Of a stretch of 20,481 bases of DNA, positions 53 through 19,625 are shown one piece after another (the stretch's first letter is position 1; each line of letters begins with the position of its first letter). The notes below the pieces were generated by a model, which saw nothing but the letters and a program-made list of their open reading frames with translations, ran no database searches and was not told the origin of the DNA. Source of the DNA: a virus. The stretch covers positions 1 through 20,481 of the IMG/VR virus record IMGVR_UViG_3300010392_001014, one strand, 5' to 3'. The position numbers and the translations under genes are program-made.

Positions 53-243
53 TACTGTGGTCCTCCATTGATTGTATCGATTTTACCTTCGATACGTTTT
101 AAGGTTGTTTCGAGCCATGTATGTTTAAGTTCGCACATATCCTTACGAACGTAAATCTTGTTAGCGATGACCGACTTGACTACATAACCGAAGATACCAA
201 AAATTGTCGCAACAGATCCAGCCTCTAGCCAAGTTGGACTCAT
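52..243 (-). CDS. Small single-membrane-segment protein (holin/spanin-like size)
   Basis: This is a 63-residue protein with one hydrophobic segment (about residues 5-26, rich in Gly, Ile, Val and Phe) followed by a charged tail that could form a short coiled coil (about 32-58). Its start overlaps the TerL nuclease stop as ATGA and has a good AAGGAG SD 8 bases upstream, so translation is probably coupled. One-segment proteins of this size next to packaging genes are sometimes holins or membrane anchors, but nothing here proves a lysis role. Confidence 0.7.
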   Translation of the reverse strand: MSPTWLEAGSVATIFGIFGYVVKSVIANKIYVRKDMCELKHTWLETTLKRIEGKIDTINGGPQ

Positions 244-878
244 CCGTATAACTCCTTTACTCGTGCTTCTATTTCGTGCGAGGGGACGCCTCTGTTTCGC
301 AAATAGCTCGCCAGGGAGTCGGCCTCATCTCTGGTTTTTTGGGGTACAGGTCTCTGCGGTATGAGCGCTACTGCACTGGCGAGACAGTCAATTCTATCGA
401 TGTGTTGTATGGTGGGAAATCCCCTCAAGTCTGCTAGGAGTTCTGTCATGTGTTCTGGTACGAACAGACGGCCCTCGTTGATTACAGGTTCAAGGGATGT
501 TCGGATGCGGAAGAATTTGTCTATCTTGGTCGGTTGGTTCACTTCGAGGAACTTGTTTTTGTGTGGACCAAGACGACGTCGAGCCTCTGTGTGGACAAGA
601 TCAGCAAAGAGACTCTGCATCGCATTTGCCTCAATTCCGAATATCTTCGGATTATAATTATCGCAAATTGTGATTAGTTTGTCAAGATAGGCACTTGGGG
701 ATAAACGGCCTGCCCAAGAGTGTATGACAAAGATACGTTGGAGATGGTCCGTGGCGATTACAATTGCGGCTTGTAATGCGCGGATTTTCTTATGTTTTGC
801 TGATGCTGCCTTTGCCTTACCGCCAGCCGGGTCGGTGAAGGCGAACAGCTCCAGGTCGGGGAGGTTGTGTGTTATCAT
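240..878 (-). CDS. terL: Terminase large subunit, nuclease (RNase H-like) part
   Basis: This 212-residue protein matches the C-terminal nuclease domain of phage large terminases (Terminase_6C type), which cuts concatemeric DNA during packaging. Candidate metal-binding acids are Asp16 in FTDPAGG, Glu83 in FGIEAN and Asp161/Asp164 in HIDRIDCLASA, in the usual order and spacing. No ATPase domain is attached: that lies in a separate gene at 2260-3471. The ATG at 878 has no recognisable SD. It lies two codons after the in-frame stop of the 885-1202 gene, which suggests re-initiation or occasional readthrough. The domain call is secure; how the two halves work together is inference. Confidence 0.85.
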   Translation of the reverse strand: MITHNLPDLELFAFTDPAGGKAKAASAKHKKIRALQAAIVIATDHLQRIFVIHSWAGRLSPSAYLDKLITICDNYNPKIFGIEANAMQSLFADLVHTEARRRLGPHKNKFLEVNQPTKIDKFFRIRTSLEPVINEGRLFVPEHMTELLADLRGFPTIQHIDRIDCLASAVALIPQRPVPQKTRDEADSLASYLRNRGVPSHEIEARVKELYG

Positions 879-2006: not shown

Positions 2007-2260
2007 CTCCTCACCAACTTCCAGCGAGCACCTTCGTCGGTGATGAGATCCACGTTACCGCCCCGGCGTTTGGCTGCGGTGCAGCGTTCTAAGCGATCTA
2101 TGTTTATTTCGAGGATTAGGCGTTCGTCGCGCTCGGATAGGCCAAAGGTCCAGGCGTGGACTAGGCCACAGTCACAGCAGGCGACTTTGATCCAGGGTTC
2201 TTCCATGTCTACTACGACGATTTGGTCGTCTTCGATGCGTTGGTAGGTGTCTTTACTCAT
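2003..2260 (-). CDS. Conserved small phage protein with CxxC and His (zinc-finger-like)
   Basis: This is an 85-residue protein. Its pattern VACCDCGLVHAWTF, followed by an Arg-rich ERCTAAKRRGG segment, resembles a widespread phage family in which a C-x-x-C-G-L-x-H core is followed by Arg-rich RRN-type residues. The role of that family is unknown. The ATG at 2260 overlaps the TerL ATPase stop (TGATG). A TTG three bases upstream is a less likely start. The family's usual gene order could help show whether it was part of the insertion that separated the terminase halves. Confidence 0.7.
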   Translation of the reverse strand: MSKDTYQRIEDDQIVVVDMEEPWIKVACCDCGLVHAWTFGLSERDERLILEINIDRLERCTAAKRRGGNVDLITDEGARWKLVRR

Positions 2261-3471
2261 CAATATCGCAGGCGGAAGTATTCACCTCTCCCCCTCCCTA
2301 GTATGTGTTGCCAAGTGTCCTTCAGCCTAGCCCCTCTAGGCACTTTCACCCCACCTTCTGGTTTCTTCTTCCACTTCTCTTCGAGGAGGTAGTCGTCTTC
2401 AGTCTCTTCGAAGTTTATCTGGTCACCCGAGAAGTCGAAGTAGCGTAGTTTGCTCATGTCGAAGTCGGAGAGTTCGGGGTTGGCTGCGGAGTTCATATAG
2501 AGTAGCCAGAACATGGAGCCGAATTCACGCTGGAGTTGGGCTACTCGGGGTTTGTCGAAGCGTTCGGGCCAGATTGGGTTTTCGTCTTCGATGATGGCTC
2601 TCTGGACTGCTTCCACGGTGGGGTCGTTTTGCAACACGTACTCGTACAGGTCCCAAACAGCCCATCGAGTGCCGATAATAAATTCCAGAGCTTCCATACC
2701 AGTGTCTTTCTCATATTCCTCCATGAGGGCGCGACTTGCGATGTGCCAGTCGATTGCTGTTTGCATAACGGTTTCGCTGTTTGCGGCTTCTATACTTATT
2801 AAATCGTCTTTGATGAGGACAGTCGGTCTCGCTCCAGTAATCGCTCCCCCAACACCAATGGCACGAACAGTGCTGTCGGGCCACTCTGTCTCGCGAGGTA
2901 CTATCATCTCCAAATTGTTCCATTTTTTCGCACTCCTTGGATTCTCCCAACATACATGGGGCCAAAGGGTTCGGAATAATTGGTTGGACTCCCAAACGGC
3001 TTGGATTACACGAAGGTTGCGCGATGCCATACCTTCGGTTTCTCCCGCGAGCAGAATTCGCATTTCGCTGCCGTTCCATCCTGGAAAATAGATATTCGAT
3101 TCGGCGGACTGAATGATGATGTGCGGGGGTAGGCAATGAGCCACGATTGAAGTTTTCGCGTGGTCACGGGGAAGAAGAAGCAGTTTTCGGAACGGCGGAG
3201 TCTTCTGGAGAAAATTGCAAATAGGAAGATGAAGACTTTTAGTAAGATAGTCTCTGCCCATGATTGCTTTGGAGAATACATGGAGGTCATTTTCGCACCT
3301 CGTCTTTAGGCGGTTGATGAACTCGCCGGACGGTTGGGTGGCTCCGGCTTGGCGAGCTTTGCCCGTTTTGGCATCGACGACTACTTCTGCCTGGAAGTCT
3401 TTGGCTTGGAACTTTGAGATGGCTTCCTCGTCGTCGTAGATGTCTAAGAGTTCTGTGTATTTGTCACTCAT
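2260..3471 (-). CDS. terL: Terminase large subunit, ATPase (motor) part
   Basis: This 403-residue protein matches the N-terminal ATPase domain of phage large terminases, the DNA-packaging motor. It has a variant Walker A (PRDHAKTS, about 101-108), a Walker B with the catalytic acid (TVLIKDD, 217-223) and the coupling motif IIGTRW (265-270). The typical FWLLYMNSAANPE stretch (321-333) closes the ATPase core. About 55 residues of charged tail follow before the stop. The nuclease domain normally fused here is missing and encoded 1.4 kb downstream. ATG 3471 overlaps the previous gene by 8 bases. The SD is weak (GAAAATCAG), so coupling is likely. Confidence 0.9.
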   Translation of the reverse strand: MSDKYTELLDIYDDEEAISKFQAKDFQAEVVVDAKTGKARQAGATQPSGEFINRLKTRCENDLHVFSKAIMGRDYLTKSLHLPICNFLQKTPPFRKLLLLPRDHAKTSIVAHCLPPHIIIQSAESNIYFPGWNGSEMRILLAGETEGMASRNLRVIQAVWESNQLFRTLWPHVCWENPRSAKKWNNLEMIVPRETEWPDSTVRAIGVGGAITGARPTVLIKDDLISIEAANSETVMQTAIDWHIASRALMEEYEKDTGMEALEFIIGTRWAVWDLYEYVLQNDPTVEAVQRAIIEDENPIWPERFDKPRVAQLQREFGSMFWLLYMNSAANPELSDFDMSKLRYFDFSGDQINFEETEDDYLLEEKWKKKPEGGVKVPRGARLKDTWQHILGRGRGEYFRLRY

Positions 3472-6225: not shown

Positions 6226-6562
6226 CTTTCTCCTCCAAGTCCTTATTCCATGTAGAATGCCAACCATTCTTCTCTTGTTCCTGCTTCCAGTAGCACGAGC
6301 CACAAACGCCCCAGTGGGTCGCCTCATCTTCACAACATTCGCGGCATAATCCCTCTTTTATGCAATATGTGACTACATTTTCGCTCTCGGGCTGAGATAC
6401 GCCGTATAAAGAGCTTATTAAACTATAAGTCTGCAATTTTCCCCGACATTCGGCAGAATAGCACTCTTCGAAGATTCGAACGGGTACATGACTGGATTTT
6501 AGCCACTTTTTCTCTATTCGACGCCCGCATTCGTTGCAATCATATTTTTCGCGGGTGTGCAT
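6215..6562 (-). CDS. Cys-rich protein with several zinc-knuckle motifs
   Basis: This 115-residue protein carries at least four Cys clusters in order: CNEC (about 9-12), CYSAEC (about 34-39), CRECC (about 73-77) and CGSC (about 88-91). It likely binds two or more zinc ions. GAGGAGG lies 6 bases before ATG 6562, and the gene overlaps the end of the enolase-superfamily gene by 23 bases. The role is unknown. Confidence 0.7.
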   Translation of the reverse strand: MHTREKYDCNECGRRIEKKWLKSSHVPVRIFEECYSAECRGKLQTYSLISSLYGVSQPESENVVTYCIKEGLCRECCEDEATHWGVCGSCYWKQEQEKNGWHSTWNKDLEEKDEA

Positions 6563-7709
6563 GTAAAACCTCCTCGTTTACCTCAATTCCCCACCCTGGG
6601 CCGTCGGGTATGGTCAAAACGCCATCTTTTATGTTCGGTATCGGGGTACACAGCTCATCCCTCCACGGTACATCATCCACATCGTATTCCATTATACGGA
6701 AGTTGGGGATGCAAGCACAAAACTGGGCGGAAATTATAGTTGATAGGTGTGAATTATAGTTGTGGACGGTGCAGTTCAATTCATATAGGTTTGCTAGGGC
6801 TGCTATTTCGAGAGATCGAATAAATCCGTTCCAGATTACGTCGATTGAAGCTATATCCATCGAGCGAGCGTCGAAGAATGGTTTAAATTGGCGTGCTCCG
6901 AGAAGGTTTTCGCCTGAGCAGATGGGGATTTGGATAGATGAGCGTATATCTTCTAGCGATTCTGGGCTATATGAGTCGATTTCGAGCCATAATAGACCGA
7001 ATTCTTCCAGCATTTGACCTATTTTGATGTATCCCTCTTGTTTGAAGTTGTAATTGAGGTCTAGGATGATGGAAATGGGATATAAGCGGGTTTCGAGGGC
7101 GAGAATCCAGCTATCGATGGCGTCTGCAACCTCTCTGGTTACGTTTAGCTCTGGTCCGCCGGGTGTGCGGGCGAATCCGGGCATGTAGATGTGGGGTTCG
7201 GGAGTGAAGATTGGGATATTGGTTTTTATTACTCTAAACCCACTTTCTCTGATTTCTTTGATGAACTCTGGGACATCTTCGAGAGAGCTAATAGCCCCTC
7301 TATTAACATGGGTATATGCTCTAACGCGTGATGTTCCGCAATGGGACCAATAGAGAGGGATGCGATTTCTGACCGCTCCACCGAATAGCTCGTAGACGGG
7401 GACTCCGTAATACTTACCTTTAATGTCAAGTAAAGCATTCTCTATCCCTCCTATGGCTTTGGTGATGATTGAGCCGACTGATTGCCTAGTACGGGAGTAG
7501 AGTTTCCAGTAGAGTGCCTCGACGTTGCGGGGGTCTTCACCAATCAACAGGAGTTTGAGGTCTCGGACGACGCCTTCGATGCCAGAGGGTGAGCCGTGAG
7601 AGTCGGTGACTTCACTCCATCCATATAAGAAATCGGTCTCCACTTTAACAAACGACCAAGTTCGCCAGCCTGCGTCGCAATGTAGGACTTTTACGTCGGT
7701 TATTTTCAT
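6540..7709 (-). CDS. Enolase-superfamily enzyme (mandelate racemase/muconate lactonizing type)
   Basis: This 389-residue protein is of normal full length for the family. The N-terminal capping domain spans about 1-125 and ends with the typical IGGIENALLDIKGKYYGVPVYELFGG. The barrel follows. Metal ligands are Asp217 (LDLNYNF), Glu243 (WLEID) and Glu267 (SGEN). Likely acid/base residues are Lys162 (VIKTN), Asp290 and His316 (TVHNYNSH). All are present, so the enzyme should be active in proton abstraction from a carboxylate, as racemase, dehydratase or cycloisomerase. The substrate is not predictable; sugar-acid dehydratase is plausible. A GGGAG SD precedes the ATG. It is an unusual cargo gene for a phage. 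Confidence 0.9.
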   Translation of the reverse strand: MKITDVKVLHCDAGWRTWSFVKVETDFLYGWSEVTDSHGSPSGIEGVVRDLKLLLIGEDPRNVEALYWKLYSRTRQSVGSIITKAIGGIENALLDIKGKYYGVPVYELFGGAVRNRIPLYWSHCGTSRVRAYTHVNRGAISSLEDVPEFIKEIRESGFRVIKTNIPIFTPEPHIYMPGFARTPGGPELNVTREVADAIDSWILALETRLYPISIILDLNYNFKQEGYIKIGQMLEEFGLLWLEIDSYSPESLEDIRSSIQIPICSGENLLGARQFKPFFDARSMDIASIDVIWNGFIRSLEIAALANLYELNCTVHNYNSHLSTIISAQFCACIPNFRIMEYDVDDVPWRDELCTPIPNIKDGVLTIPDGPGWGIEVNEEVLHAHPRKI

Positions 7710-13348: not shown

Positions 13349-14290
13349 ATGGCAATCAAAAGGCGGGACAACTCCCGCATAGCGGCTGTGTCCAAGTGTC
13401 ACACTGATGCCACATTGCAGTTTGTGCTTGGTATGCAAGCGAGAGACAAGCCACCGCCCATGATCGGAGGCAACCACGCTCACCAGGCGTTGATGGTGTA
13501 TATTGAATCGGGAGGAGACGGTGCGAGTGCGCTCGCGTTATTCGACGCACTCCACAAACCCTTCAGCGATTCCCTCAACCTCAAAGAGGACGATAAGTTT
13601 GCACAGTGGTCACACGAGAATATGAGGGATGTGTTGCACTACTACTTTCTCTCTCACCCGCTGGATGCGTTCCCATTCGAGTGGATAATGGGCAGTTGTG
13701 AGAAGAGTGTGACTGCTATGCTCACACCCGAGATAGAGATATGGGCTAAGGTTGACGCATTGGGTCGGGAGATGGGCATAGTCCCAGTAGATCACAAGTG
13801 TCGTGGAAGTGGGATCACGCATTGGTACTTGAGCCAGTTCGCACGCGGTTCACAGCCGAGCACATACATTTGGGCGGTGGGGGAGCAGACAGGGGAGCCA
13901 GTGAGTTCCATGTATCTCAATATAATAGATATGAAGAAGTTGCCGGACTTGAGATACAAGAAGGATGGGAACCCATACAGGTGTAACACCCACGCGTGTG
14001 CTGTGACTGAGTGTAGGCATCTGCATAGCCAACACCAACTCAAGATTGTGACGCGCACACCACAGGCTATCAAAGAGTGGAAGAGAGAGGCGATTGCATG
14101 TTCCAACGAGTTGAGTATGTTGGAAGAGGAGTTCAACGATCCCGAGAGGATTCAAGAGGTCAGGGTGCAGGGGACTACAAATGGCTCGTGCAACTTCTGT
14201 CAGTTTAAGGAGTTTTGCAATATGGGCAGACAGCCAGCATTGATTGAGAGTATGTTGGTACACAGCCCATGGGAGCCTTGGAATCAATGA
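13349..14290 (+). CDS. PD-(D/E)XK nuclease with Fe-S cluster cysteines (Cas4/RecB-like)
   Basis: This 313-residue protein has the active-site elements of the PD-(D/E)XK superfamily: His43 or His45 (GGNHAHQ), Asp136 (KVDALG), Asp148-x-Lys150 (VDHK) and Gln169/Tyr173. Cys17 near the N-terminus and C-x2-C-x5-C (281, 284, 290) at the C-terminus match the 4Fe-4S pattern of Cas4 and AddB-type nucleases. In phages it would resect DNA ends for recombination with the neighbouring ATPase and SSB-like protein. GAGGAGGGGTAGGAG precedes ATG. Confidence 0.85.
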   Translation: MAIKRRDNSRIAAVSKCHTDATLQFVLGMQARDKPPPMIGGNHAHQALMVYIESGGDGASALALFDALHKPFSDSLNLKEDDKFAQWSHENMRDVLHYYFLSHPLDAFPFEWIMGSCEKSVTAMLTPEIEIWAKVDALGREMGIVPVDHKCRGSGITHWYLSQFARGSQPSTYIWAVGEQTGEPVSSMYLNIIDMKKLPDLRYKKDGNPYRCNTHACAVTECRHLHSQHQLKIVTRTPQAIKEWKREAIACSNELSMLEEEFNDPERIQEVRVQGTTNGSCNFCQFKEFCNMGRQPALIESMLVHSPWEPWNQ

Positions 14291-14445: not shown

Positions 14446-14480
14446 ACAATATCCCACCAACCACACAGGAGAGGAAATCC

Positions 14481-15248
14481 ATGTCTACCATCACGATAGA
14501 GTATTTTAGTGACTACACCACCTACCGCTATCGCATGGCGGAGTTCCATAAGGAGCAGCATCTGTACAAGACCGTTGTGGCCGATAGTCATACCTTCCAA
14601 TCTCTCTATGCCCGCAAAGAGCAGGAGCGCATCAACCCAATGGAGAAGTTCGCTCGGGGGACGGATACGAGACAGTGGTTCTCAGGTGAGACTGATTCAG
14701 CAGAGGATATGATTATTATTCACTATGGTCAACTGGTTGAGTTGAATGTGGTGCTGATCTGTCATGTGAATAGGGACACCACCTTGATAGCTAACGAGGC
14801 TGTGAGAGGGCCATTTGCGAGAGGTAGGTTGGCATCCATGAGCCTGTTGTCTGCTGCCTACCAAGAGATATATCATAGTTTCGTTGGTCGTGATGACCAG
14901 GGGAACCTAACCTATGGCTTGAGGACTAGGAACGATGGTCAATTCCATGCCACTACTCAAATCGATGCACCCAATCCCTCATACCCCGACTACGCAGCTC
15001 TCTTTGAGAACATGCCCGAGAAGTATGGTCAACCAGGACACTACTTAATCTATGGGGATACTGGGACTGGTAAGACACGGTTTGCATCTACCTTTAGACA
15101 ACTTGGTGACATGCTCGTATGGTGCTTTGACCCAGTCGGCAAAGATATACCGTATCATCTAGGTGGCAAGGTCGGGGAAGTACAATACCGTGAGATAGGC
15201 ATGGGAACTGGCATAGCGCAGTTGCCGTACCGGATTGTGGAGTTTTAA
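14481..15248 (+). CDS. Sak4-like RecA-fold ATPase, apparently circularly permuted
   Basis: This 255-residue protein follows AGGAGAGGAAATCC. Parts of a phage Sak4/AAA_24-type recombination ATPase are present in swapped order. Residues 1-175 hold what is normally the C-terminal half: Walker B (TVVADS, Asp35), the VVLICHV strand (90-96), then AAYQEIY, LRTRNDGQFHATTQIDAPN. Residues 185-255 hold the normal N-terminal half: Walker A GDTGTGKT (192-199), FASTF, CFDPVGKDIPY. The end PYRIVEF and the start TIEYFSDYTTY abut where an unpermuted protein would be continuous. A start upstream at 14436 lacks an SD. The ATPase family call is firm; function after permutation is inference. Confidence 0.8.
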   Translation: MSTITIEYFSDYTTYRYRMAEFHKEQHLYKTVVADSHTFQSLYARKEQERINPMEKFARGTDTRQWFSGETDSAEDMIIIHYGQLVELNVVLICHVNRDTTLIANEAVRGPFARGRLASMSLLSAAYQEIYHSFVGRDDQGNLTYGLRTRNDGQFHATTQIDAPNPSYPDYAALFENMPEKYGQPGHYLIYGDTGTGKTRFASTFRQLGDMLVWCFDPVGKDIPYHLGGKVGEVQYREIGMGTGIAQLPYRIVEF

Positions 15249-15270: not shown

Positions 15271-15981
15271 ATGGGTTTAGGAATTTCATTTAGTGACATA
15301 CCCAAATTGACGGGGGGATTATGGCCTGAAGGGAAGTGGCTTATCACATTTGCCGAAGCTGAAAAGCGCCATTCTTCCAACCTTAAATTGATGACTTGGG
15401 TGAATTTTGTTGGGGATACGGAGGAAGTTAAAGGTCGCCAAGGTTTTCACAATTTTGTTTTTGGTGTTCAAGAAGGTGATTATAAGAGTGAAGAGTATCC
15501 AGAGGGCAGAGTGACTTGGACCGATCTGGATGCAGTATTGGATGAGAGAACTTGGAAAGAACCGTGGTTGATGGGACCGAAGCATTTTAACGCCCTCTTG
15601 GAAGCGTGTTCATTCGTTGGCCTAGACAGTATGGACCCATCAGACCCAGTTGTTCTGGAGAAGGTGATTGCCTTGCTTGCGGGGCAGAAATGTGTGGTCG
15701 AAGTCTACAATACTACTCAGAAAAAGGGTGATTACAAAGGAACCGAGCAGAACAACTTCCGTTTTGAGAAGGTTGGAGCGAGAGTAGGCCCGAAGGGTAA
15801 ATCTCCGGTGCAAGCGGCTCCAATGAGTCCACCCTCTGCACCAGTTGTTGCTCCAGCACCCAAGGTAGAGGCTGCGCCCGCAGGTGAAGTGGTTATGGTC
15901 AACTGTCCGAAGTGCAAGCAGGATATACCAAGCGCTGAGTTTGGTCCTCATGTGATGGCTTGTCCGGGCGCGTGGTTGTGA
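15271..15981 (+). CDS. SSB-like (DUF669-type) protein with C-terminal zinc tail
   Basis: This 236-residue protein is read from ATG 15271 after AAGGAGG. The first about 175 residues match the phage DUF669-like single-stranded-DNA-binding pattern: GKWLITFAEAEKRHSSNLKLMTWVNF, HNFVFGV, then NALLEACSFVGL and the GQKCVVEVYNTTQKKGDYKGTE strand pair. A Pro/Ala/Val linker (about 182-208) leads to a small zinc-finger-like end (CPKCKQDIPSAEFGPHVMAC). It most likely protects single-stranded DNA and works with the ATPase upstream. The zinc tail is not typical of the family. Confidence 0.75.
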   Translation: MGLGISFSDIPKLTGGLWPEGKWLITFAEAEKRHSSNLKLMTWVNFVGDTEEVKGRQGFHNFVFGVQEGDYKSEEYPEGRVTWTDLDAVLDERTWKEPWLMGPKHFNALLEACSFVGLDSMDPSDPVVLEKVIALLAGQKCVVEVYNTTQKKGDYKGTEQNNFRFEKVGARVGPKGKSPVQAAPMSPPSAPVVAPAPKVEAAPAGEVVMVNCPKCKQDIPSAEFGPHVMACPGAWL

Positions 15982-17023: not shown

Positions 17024-17154
17024 TGGACACAAGGCTGTGTGCGTGTGGAAGCAGGATGTTCTATTCTAACCGTCTACGGAAGTGGATCTGTTTTAACTTC
17101 TTAGGATGCGAATGCGACTCATCCCAGGCTGCGGACCAACTGATGCCAAGATAG
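17023..17154 (+). CDS. 43-residue Cys-rich micro-protein, GTG start
   Basis: GTG 17023 overlaps the previous stop (TAGTG) and follows AAGGA by 8 bases. The frame has CACG and then CFNFLGCEC, a zinc-knuckle-like arrangement. Its last 49 bases overlap the polymerase start in another frame. Conserved Cys spacing supports a real gene; the role is unknown. Confidence 0.5.
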   Translation: MDTRLCACGSRMFYSNRLRKWICFNFLGCECDSSQAADQLMPR

Positions 17155-19625
17155 TCCTCATCGGTGAGGCTCCAGGCAAGGTGGAACATGAAACTTATGA
17201 GCCGTTTAGCGGAATGTCGGGGAATCTCCTCAACCAGTGGTGGGCACAGGTTGGTCTCTCCCGAGAGCAGATTCGAATAGATAACCTCTACCCCTTTCTC
17301 CCCCCAGGAGGAAAAATTGAGCGAGTACCGGTGGATGAATTGGCGTATTACGTTTACGATCTTCGCAAACGACTGGCAAGGCTTGACGGCCCGCATGTCA
17401 TTGTTCCGACGGGGAATTATGCGACGTTTAGCCTTGTCGGTAAAGGGAAGGTCAAAGCTGCGTTACGAAAAGCGCTTGGTGAGGACATAGATGCGACTAC
17501 GGCTGAGAAGAAAGCTGGAATTACTAAACTTCGTGGTTCAGTGTATCCTTACACGGGTGTTGGAGGTCATAATTGTAAAGTTATTCCGACGATCCATCCG
17601 GCTTGGTTCTTGTACGCGGGTGGGTTCAATTCGAAGAAGCAGAGGAGAGCAATAGCTGATTGGAGGAGGATTAGACGTGAGGCAGACACTCCTATATACA
17701 ATGGAGCGGAGAGATTACACATTACGAATCCGTCTGTCGAAGAGATTGAGTCTTACCTTGGTGCTTTATGTTCACCCGAAGCCGCTATCTCAATCGACAT
17801 CGAAACTTGGGGTAACAAGCTCTCGTGTGTGGGGTTCGGGATTTCTGATGCTCTCAGCATCACGATACCGTTGGTTGGAAGAGGTGTATCCGAGAAGTTC
17901 CTACCTTATGTTAAAGCTATATGTGAGTCGCCTTCTGCCAAGGTTACCCAGGGAGGACACTACGACGCCTACTGGCTCGCCTATGCGGGAATCACCTTGA
18001 ACAACTGGCAATGGGACACGCTTGCAATGCACCACTGCCTGCACCCTACCGATGAACACAGCCTACACTACCTTGCATCAATCTACTGCGAGGATTATAG
18101 ATATTGGAAGGACGAGGCTAAAGACGCTGATGAGATATTCAAATACACTAAAGACCTTGATGCTCTTTGGACTTATAATGGTATGGACTGTTGTTACACT
18201 CGTGAACTTCTGGATGCTCTACACAACGAACTCGTGGATCGTGGTATGTGTCAGTTTTATCAACTTCATTATGCTGATCTGTTCAGCCCTGTTCTTGGTG
18301 TTATGGTACATGGAGTTAAGGTCAACACAGAAGCTCAAAAGGATTGGAACAAACGACTTCGTAGAAAGAATAAGGAAACAAAGCAGATATTAGAGGGCAT
18401 GGCGGGCATGGACCTCTTCGCTAAAAAAGACTTCTCCCCCAAGCTCCTCCGAGAATACTTCAACAAAGTCTTGAAGGCTCCGAAGGTGATGTCTTGGAGC
18501 AAGTCCACAACAGGTAAGAAGAAGACCCAATCGTTAGATGAAGCTGCTCTCAGGAGTCTAGCCACACGAGTCGGGAAAGCTACAGGACAGACCAAGAAGC
18601 AATTCGAGGAGACAAGGGAAGCGGCTCGACTAATCCTCAAATGGAGAAGAGATAAGAAAGTCTCTGACTTTATGAAAGGGGCGTGGGATAAGGATGGAAG
18701 GATTCGGTGTCAGTACAAGTTTCAGACGGAAGCGGGTAGGTTTGCATCGAGTAAGAATCCAAAACGTACTGGTTACAACCTTCAGAATGTGGATAGGGAA
18801 ATACGAGATACGTTTGTCCCTGATGAGGGATCGGTTTTTGTTAAAGTTGACCTCTCCCAGATTGAGGATCGGATCGTTAAAATGTGGACGCAGTCGCCAC
18901 GTCTGGTTGAATTGGCGAATCTACATCCTACCGAGTATGACTGCCATAGTCACAATGCAGCCATTATATTCAAGAAGTCCGAGAGCGATGTCACCTACAA
19001 AGAGAGATACCTTGCCAAGCGTGGTGTTCATGCCGCTGAACGTGGAATGGGTGGAAAGAAACTATCCGAGGAATTACTTAAAGACTTTGACTCTGTTGTT
19101 GGCGCCAGAGAATGCCAACGCATGATCGACACCTTCTTCGCTGAGTTCCACGAGATACCGGAGATATATTTCAAAGAGATACGTCAGAAGGTCATGTCAG
19201 ACAAACAGCTAGCCAACAACTGGGGAAGGGAGTGGCATTGTACTTATGACAGGTTCTCGGATGACCTCTACAGGCGAGCGTATTCGTTTAACCCGCAGTC
19301 GGACGCGGCTGACCTACTTAACCAATGGGGGCTTAAACCGCTCCATTCGTTACTCCAAGGTATGCAATCCAAACTTAATCTTCAAGTACATGATGAGCTT
19401 ATCATATCTTGCCCACCTGGAGAGGCATACACAGTGGCCGCATTCTTGGTGGGAATGCTGGAGCGCCCTCGCTACTACTTCGGAAATAAGTTAATAGTCC
19501 CCGCGTGCGTCACAGTAGCCAAGAGTTGGAAATGTGATAAATATGAGTTTAAGCGTTTACCTGCCCAGAAAGAGTTCAATGAAGCTGTATACGCCGTACT
19601 TGAAGAAACAAACCAGACCGACTAA
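17106..19625 (+). CDS. polA: DNA polymerase A fused to a uracil-DNA-glycosylase-like domain
   Basis: This protein has 839 residues in three parts. The N-terminal UDG-superfamily domain (1-about 195) has GEAPG (20-24), PFSGMSG (33-39) and HPAWF (164-168). The 3'-5' exonuclease (about 225-380) keeps Asp231/Glu233, Asp287 and the Tyr357-Asp361 motif, so proofreading is likely active. The polymerase (about 520-839) has motif A DLSQIEDR (Asp582), motif B (Lys638 to about 650) and motif C HDE (762-764). In motif B the position usually Tyr (E. coli Tyr766) is Arg646 and the Phe762 equivalent is His642. ATG 17112 is an alternative start. This is the replicative polymerase. Confidence 0.93.
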   Translation: MRMRLIPGCGPTDAKIVLIGEAPGKVEHETYEPFSGMSGNLLNQWWAQVGLSREQIRIDNLYPFLPPGGKIERVPVDELAYYVYDLRKRLARLDGPHVIVPTGNYATFSLVGKGKVKAALRKALGEDIDATTAEKKAGITKLRGSVYPYTGVGGHNCKVIPTIHPAWFLYAGGFNSKKQRRAIADWRRIRREADTPIYNGAERLHITNPSVEEIESYLGALCSPEAAISIDIETWGNKLSCVGFGISDALSITIPLVGRGVSEKFLPYVKAICESPSAKVTQGGHYDAYWLAYAGITLNNWQWDTLAMHHCLHPTDEHSLHYLASIYCEDYRYWKDEAKDADEIFKYTKDLDALWTYNGMDCCYTRELLDALHNELVDRGMCQFYQLHYADLFSPVLGVMVHGVKVNTEAQKDWNKRLRRKNKETKQILEGMAGMDLFAKKDFSPKLLREYFNKVLKAPKVMSWSKSTTGKKKTQSLDEAALRSLATRVGKATGQTKKQFEETREAARLILKWRRDKKVSDFMKGAWDKDGRIRCQYKFQTEAGRFASSKNPKRTGYNLQNVDREIRDTFVPDEGSVFVKVDLSQIEDRIVKMWTQSPRLVELANLHPTEYDCHSHNAAIIFKKSESDVTYKERYLAKRGVHAAERGMGGKKLSEELLKDFDSVVGARECQRMIDTFFAEFHEIPEIYFKEIRQKVMSDKQLANNWGREWHCTYDRFSDDLYRRAYSFNPQSDAADLLNQWGLKPLHSLLQGMQSKLNLQVHDELIISCPPGEAYTVAAFLVGMLERPRYYFGNKLIVPACVTVAKSWKCDKYEFKRLPAQKEFNEAVYAVLEETNQTD

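Follow-up and report, generated by a model that had tools for sequence, protein, structure and literature searches.

A circularly permuted Sak4-like ATPase of predicted RecA fold in a metagenomic phage and its relatives

Whether a RecA-type ATPase encoded with its two halves in reverse order is a genuine protein, and by what route it came about, is the question raised by a recombination gene of a metagenomic phage. Phage Sak4 is a RecA-core, RAD51-paralog-like, ATP-dependent single-strand annealing protein, which has been described for HK620 (PMC5928155) and for an S. aureus phage (PMC5499656) and for which a structure is available (8rc5; PMC11846896). The window analysed here covers an IMG/VR virus record in full (20,481 bases), and at 14481-15248 of its plus strand a single open reading frame with an ATG start encodes 255 amino acids. 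The protein matches the Sak4-like phrog_124 family and contains both Walker A and Walker B, the canonical motif order, with Walker A near the N-terminus, being absent. The motifs quoted in the preliminary description of the gene (TVVADS, ICHV, GDTGTGKT, FDPVGKD and PYRIVEF, the last forming the C-terminal end) are all found in the protein, the parts of which are arranged as follows:

14467..14474, plus strand: Shine-Dalgarno-like AGGAGAGG, 6 bases 5' of the sak4 ATG (read from the sequence)
14481..15248, plus strand: circularly permuted Sak4-like (AAA_24/phrog_124, predicted RecA fold) ATPase, one open reading frame of 255 residues
14490..15017, plus strand: Walker B half, covering profile positions 73-249, N-terminal here but C-terminal in canonical order (hmmsearch domain 1, 152.8 bits)
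14571..14588, plus strand: Walker B strand TVVADS, residues 31-36
14757..14768, plus strand: ICHV, at about residues 93-96, with a conserved histidine after the strand (from the alignment; H95 is invariant in five permuted proteins)
15018..15032, plus strand: new linker between ALFENMP, the old C-terminus, and HYLIYGD, the old N-terminus
15033..15245, plus strand: Walker A half, covering profile positions 5-59 and a hairpin strand, C-terminal here but N-terminal in canonical order (hmmsearch domain 2, 51.2 bits)
15054..15077, plus strand: Walker A GDTGTGKT, residues 192-199
15126..15146, plus strand: FDPVGKD motif, residues 216-222

The gene had been described as carrying its Walker B half before its Walker A half, with a clean break and no part missing, and both statements are borne out by a profile of 251 positions, built exclusively from 20 canonical relatives, against which every rotation of the protein was scored. 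In native order the protein yields two out-of-order pieces, with residues 4-179 corresponding to profile positions 73-249 and residues 185-241 to positions 5-59. The top rotation, at residues 181-183 and hence at the proposed seam, yields one collinear match of 213.7 bits that spans positions 5-249 of 251. A single rotation recovers the whole domain, and the order is found in five contigs. The expectation that the rejoined order would align better stood for this profile of canonical relatives, but not for the distant library models, which discriminate poorly and give both orders about equal scores: 29.1 bits in native order (E 1.2e-6) versus 25.5 rejoined for phrog_124, and 21.9 versus 23.2 for AAA_24 (PF13479), both below the curated cut-off of 27 bits. 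The other permuted proteins score 36-57 bits against phrog_124, which is matched by 18/18 of the canonical relatives scanned; AAA_24 is matched by 16 of those 18 at E 0.001, with 29.2 bits for the relative L002. Searched against annotated phages with tblastn, the rejoined query reaches phage Sak4 proteins with seam-spanning matches whose E value is no better than 0.05, and the native-order query returns no matches.

The preliminary description had also suggested looking for the same order in related genomes. Relatives were gathered through relatives of the DNA polymerase and through two DNA motif scans, and most of the Sak4 genes so obtained were shown to adjoin the same polymerase. Four other, independent IMG/VR phage contigs encode a permuted Sak4 as a single open reading frame, at 27-43% identity to the protein of the record:

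L004: IMGVR_UViG_3300027039_000002
L055 (also L049): 3300036859_000303
L056 (also L036): 3300035698_014502
L059 (also L029): 3300035183_001064

Canonical order is found at the corresponding place in about 22 further records, and the nearest relative, L002 (47% identity), is itself canonical. For each of the five permuted proteins the best cut in the rotation scan coincides with the proposed seam, and the protein so rejoined matches the canonical profile over nearly its full length (213.7 bits for the record protein, 267 for L004, 285 for L055, 181 for L059 and 319 for L056). A profile built from the five permuted sequences produces reversed pieces in all 20 canonical records searched, and a two-sequence permuted profile produces one collinear match in each permuted record. 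Four proteins were tried against 50,697 annotated phages, none of them giving a permuted match over its full length, and no permuted relative was found in BFVD or PDB, results that reflect the limits of those collections. Scans of viral contigs with the 255-residue protein, in native and rejoined orders, found no contigs, and a sequence search of solved structures yielded nothing beyond weak matches to kinases and a designed protein. The sole returns of the genome-contig scan, ABC-type ATPases of Variovorax, were set aside as chance matches at the P-loop; the absence of matches in 398 genomes of the Variovorax phylum, a scan run without a positive control, says little. Many of the 35 loci returned by the motif patterns were likewise chance matches or repeats of records already in the set.

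The genomic setting of the gene bears directly on the reliability of its order. Its neighbours in the window are:

13349..14290, plus strand: Cas4-like exonuclease (phrog_1218), directly upstream of sak4 as in canonical relatives
15271..15981, plus strand: DUF-like protein, directly downstream of sak4, a homologue of which occupies this position in some relatives
17106..19625, plus strand: family A DNA polymerase (phrog_17), the end of the shared module

This module of Cas4-like exonuclease, sak4 and PolA is common to permuted and canonical phages. The metagenomic source of the record does invite the suspicion that assembly joined the sak4 halves in the wrong order, but the permuted order did not arise by misassembly of this contig, and an artefact is extremely improbable as an account of the data: in five separate records the gene is in frame and has a new start, stop and linker, the break falling in the same loop in four of them, and the flanking genes on both sides match those of canonical phages. 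Purine-rich stretches resembling ribosome-binding sites precede four of the five permuted starts, the start of L004 being ambiguous. What a contig break does to a canonical sak4 looks different, as seen in the genome G009. There (L008/L058, L066) the canonical gene is divided between both contig ends, as expected if a circular genome had been opened within sak4.

Several observations on other genes of these phages can be recorded here. The large terminase of the window is split, its ATPase part (2260-3471, minus strand; phrog_38 profile positions 266-536) being separated from a nuclease part encoded as a gene of its own (240-878, minus strand; positions 545-713) by a phosphoesterase-like gene at 1145-1912 and smaller genes. 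PolA is split near residue 566, in the numbering of the record's PolA and before motif A, in L068, L022 and L069. In L068 (2340-5431, minus strand) a 114-residue MRTIIAGSR gene, DUF2493-like by eye, lies between the halves, and in L022 (8273-11064) and L069 (13134-15904) the gaps are of about 240 and 354 bases, respectively. An open reading frame at 6540-7709 (minus strand) of the window reads, by eye only, like an enzyme of the enolase superfamily (mandelate racemase-like), which would be unusual in a phage.

Structure prediction, which the preliminary description had put forward as a check, agrees with a rotated domain. With an alignment of the five permuted proteins and the separate, unpaired halves of canonical relatives as input, AlphaFold2 folds the permuted chain confidently (pLDDT 90.7, pTM 0.90), as it does canonical L002 (pLDDT 89.4, pTM 0.88), and the series of strands and helices in the two models agree after rotation. 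In Foldseek the L002 model retrieves 8rc5, the solved Sak4, along with RecA and RAD51 paralogs. The permuted model finds nothing in the PDB at E 0.001 in this order-dependent search, and its BFVD matches are confined to parts of phage AAA/RecA-like proteins (best TMq 0.57); since Foldseek follows chain order, such poor matching is expected of a permutant. The new ends would lie in the beta-hairpin turn between the Walker A and Walker B halves and the old ends would be joined by a short linker, and because the ends fall in a hairpin turn the chain should still form a single RecA-type ATPase in which Walker A, Walker B and the conserved histidine keep their places. By analogy, this ICHV histidine may occupy the sensor position of RecA. 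Taken together, the rotation scan, the four further permuted homologues, the conserved gene position and the confident predicted fold support the reading of 14481-15248 as a complete, circularly permuted Sak4/RecA-fold domain.

A rearranged gene could also be a decaying or non-functional one that the phage merely tolerates. In the protein of the record, most of the loop that follows the first strand is missing and PFARGRL stands where P.APGRL is usual, features that would fit decay. Yet the five reading frames remain intact at 27-55% mutual identity with their ATPase motifs conserved in every case, the differences between L004 and L055 are fewest at codon position 2 and most numerous at position 3 in both halves, and the two-sequence permuted profile detected no other sak4 copy in the four records searched with it. 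Decay is hence very unlikely. The Walker A lysine, the Walker B aspartate, His95 and FD..GK..PY are invariant in the five permuted proteins. HK620 Sak4 binds single-stranded DNA and anneals strands in an ATP-dependent manner (PMC5928155), and from these invariant motifs we infer the same work, ATP-dependent single-strand binding and annealing, for the permuted protein. In the phage, the strands to be annealed by the permuted Sak4 would come from the Cas4-like exonuclease encoded beside it, with PolA close by.

The position of the breaks provides some indication of how the order arose. In four of the five permuted genes the break falls in a common beta-hairpin turn, which in the canonical L002 model lies between strands 66-77 and 80-86. 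The seam falls at profile positions 66/67 in L055 and 65/68 in L004, and the matches of the record protein end at position 59 and restart at 73, around the same turn. In L056 the break lies at 46/45, about 20-25 residues upstream of the common seam, and in L059 the two matches overlap at positions 55-65, so that 11 positions are covered twice. The most likely origin, in our view, is an in-place tandem duplication followed by loss of the outer halves: sak4 would have been duplicated in tandem where it stands, and the Walker A half of the first copy and the Walker B half of the second would then have been lost. The overlap in L059 looks like a leftover of such a duplication; L059 is the sole member of the five with a profile overlap between its N- and C-terminal ends, and by pairwise shuffling the overlap is not significant (fraction 0.18). 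Within 3 kb of each permuted gene, no remnant of the lost halves was detected above noise. The G+C content of the two halves agrees to about 5 percentage points within each gene, and this match favours change in place over import. As a joint explanation, a natural Sak4 permutant that forms one RecA-type ATPase, performs Sak4-like work and stems from tandem duplication is the best available and, in our judgement, highly probable.

Whether the permutation took place once or repeatedly was addressed with trees of the rejoined sequences, in which several forks are modestly supported and the bootstrap of the full tree had not settled. L004 groups with L055 (100/99), the record protein with L056 and canonical L002 (97/92), and L059 stands apart. 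A single ancestral permutation, followed by reversions to canonical order (a second duplication with trimming would restore it) or by recombination that blurred the trees, would also explain why four of the five seams share a hairpin turn. It draws further support from the weakness of some deep forks and from two groupings that the data tolerate, the record protein with L056 as sisters (p 0.44) and the record protein with L004 and L055 at full length (p 0.074 with long rows left out, against 0.025 on the Walker B half). Against it, a clade of all five permuted proteins is rejected by the AU test (p 0.0034), as is a clade of four without L059 (p 0.026, and 0.024 with long rows left out). The Walker B half alone, which is hardly affected by the choice of seam, gives p 0.0002 for the five and 0.007 for the four, and places the record protein beside canonical L002 (98/84). 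The seam of L056 (45/46 as opposed to about 66/67) also speaks against a single event, which we regard as unlikely. That the five permuted proteins are not united in the trees suggests recurrent permutation, which on these sequence comparisons appears to be the better reading. The permuted arrangement, which no fewer than five phages carry, probably had more than one origin, and two or three phage lineages, if not more, have probably undergone duplication and loss. A more specific version of recurrent permutation, with Sak4 as a repeated target of at least three in-place events at two seams and with the annealing activity of the module possibly driving the duplications, seems to us evenly poised between right and wrong.

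To our knowledge, few P-loop ATPases are natural circular permutants. The permuted Sak4 shares with the canonical Sak4 annealing proteins (phrog_124, AAA_24) a complete domain, of predicted RecA core, with Walker A and B and a place beside an exonuclease in the phage replication module, and differs from them in that the Walker B half comes first, the new termini lie in the hairpin and the old termini are fused. The GTPases YlqF, YjeQ and YqeH, with the order G4-G5-G1-G2-G3, and the cpRAS proteins, which are scattered in distribution (PMC2430557), are likewise natural circular permutants of P-loop NTPase domains, but they have a RAS-like GTPase rather than a RecA fold and break elsewhere. Enzyme-domain permutation is known also from methyltransferases, including phage cases (PMC7824862) and the DNA methyltransferases attributed to Bujnicki 2002 as cited in PMC10853773, but theirs is a methyltransferase fold and not a P-loop ATPase. 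No report of a permuted RecA/RAD51-type ATPase or Sak4 was found in the literature searched, which is not proof of absence. Tools that depend on chain order miss or half-match permuted proteins, as Foldseek does when the permuted model is compared with the PDB. More generally, with canonical and permuted forms at the same place and repeated origins likely, these phages offer a natural series for the study of how permutation arises, and the Sak4 series could be used to ask at which turns the RecA fold can accommodate new ends and whether the permuted protein can still assemble into filaments or rings.
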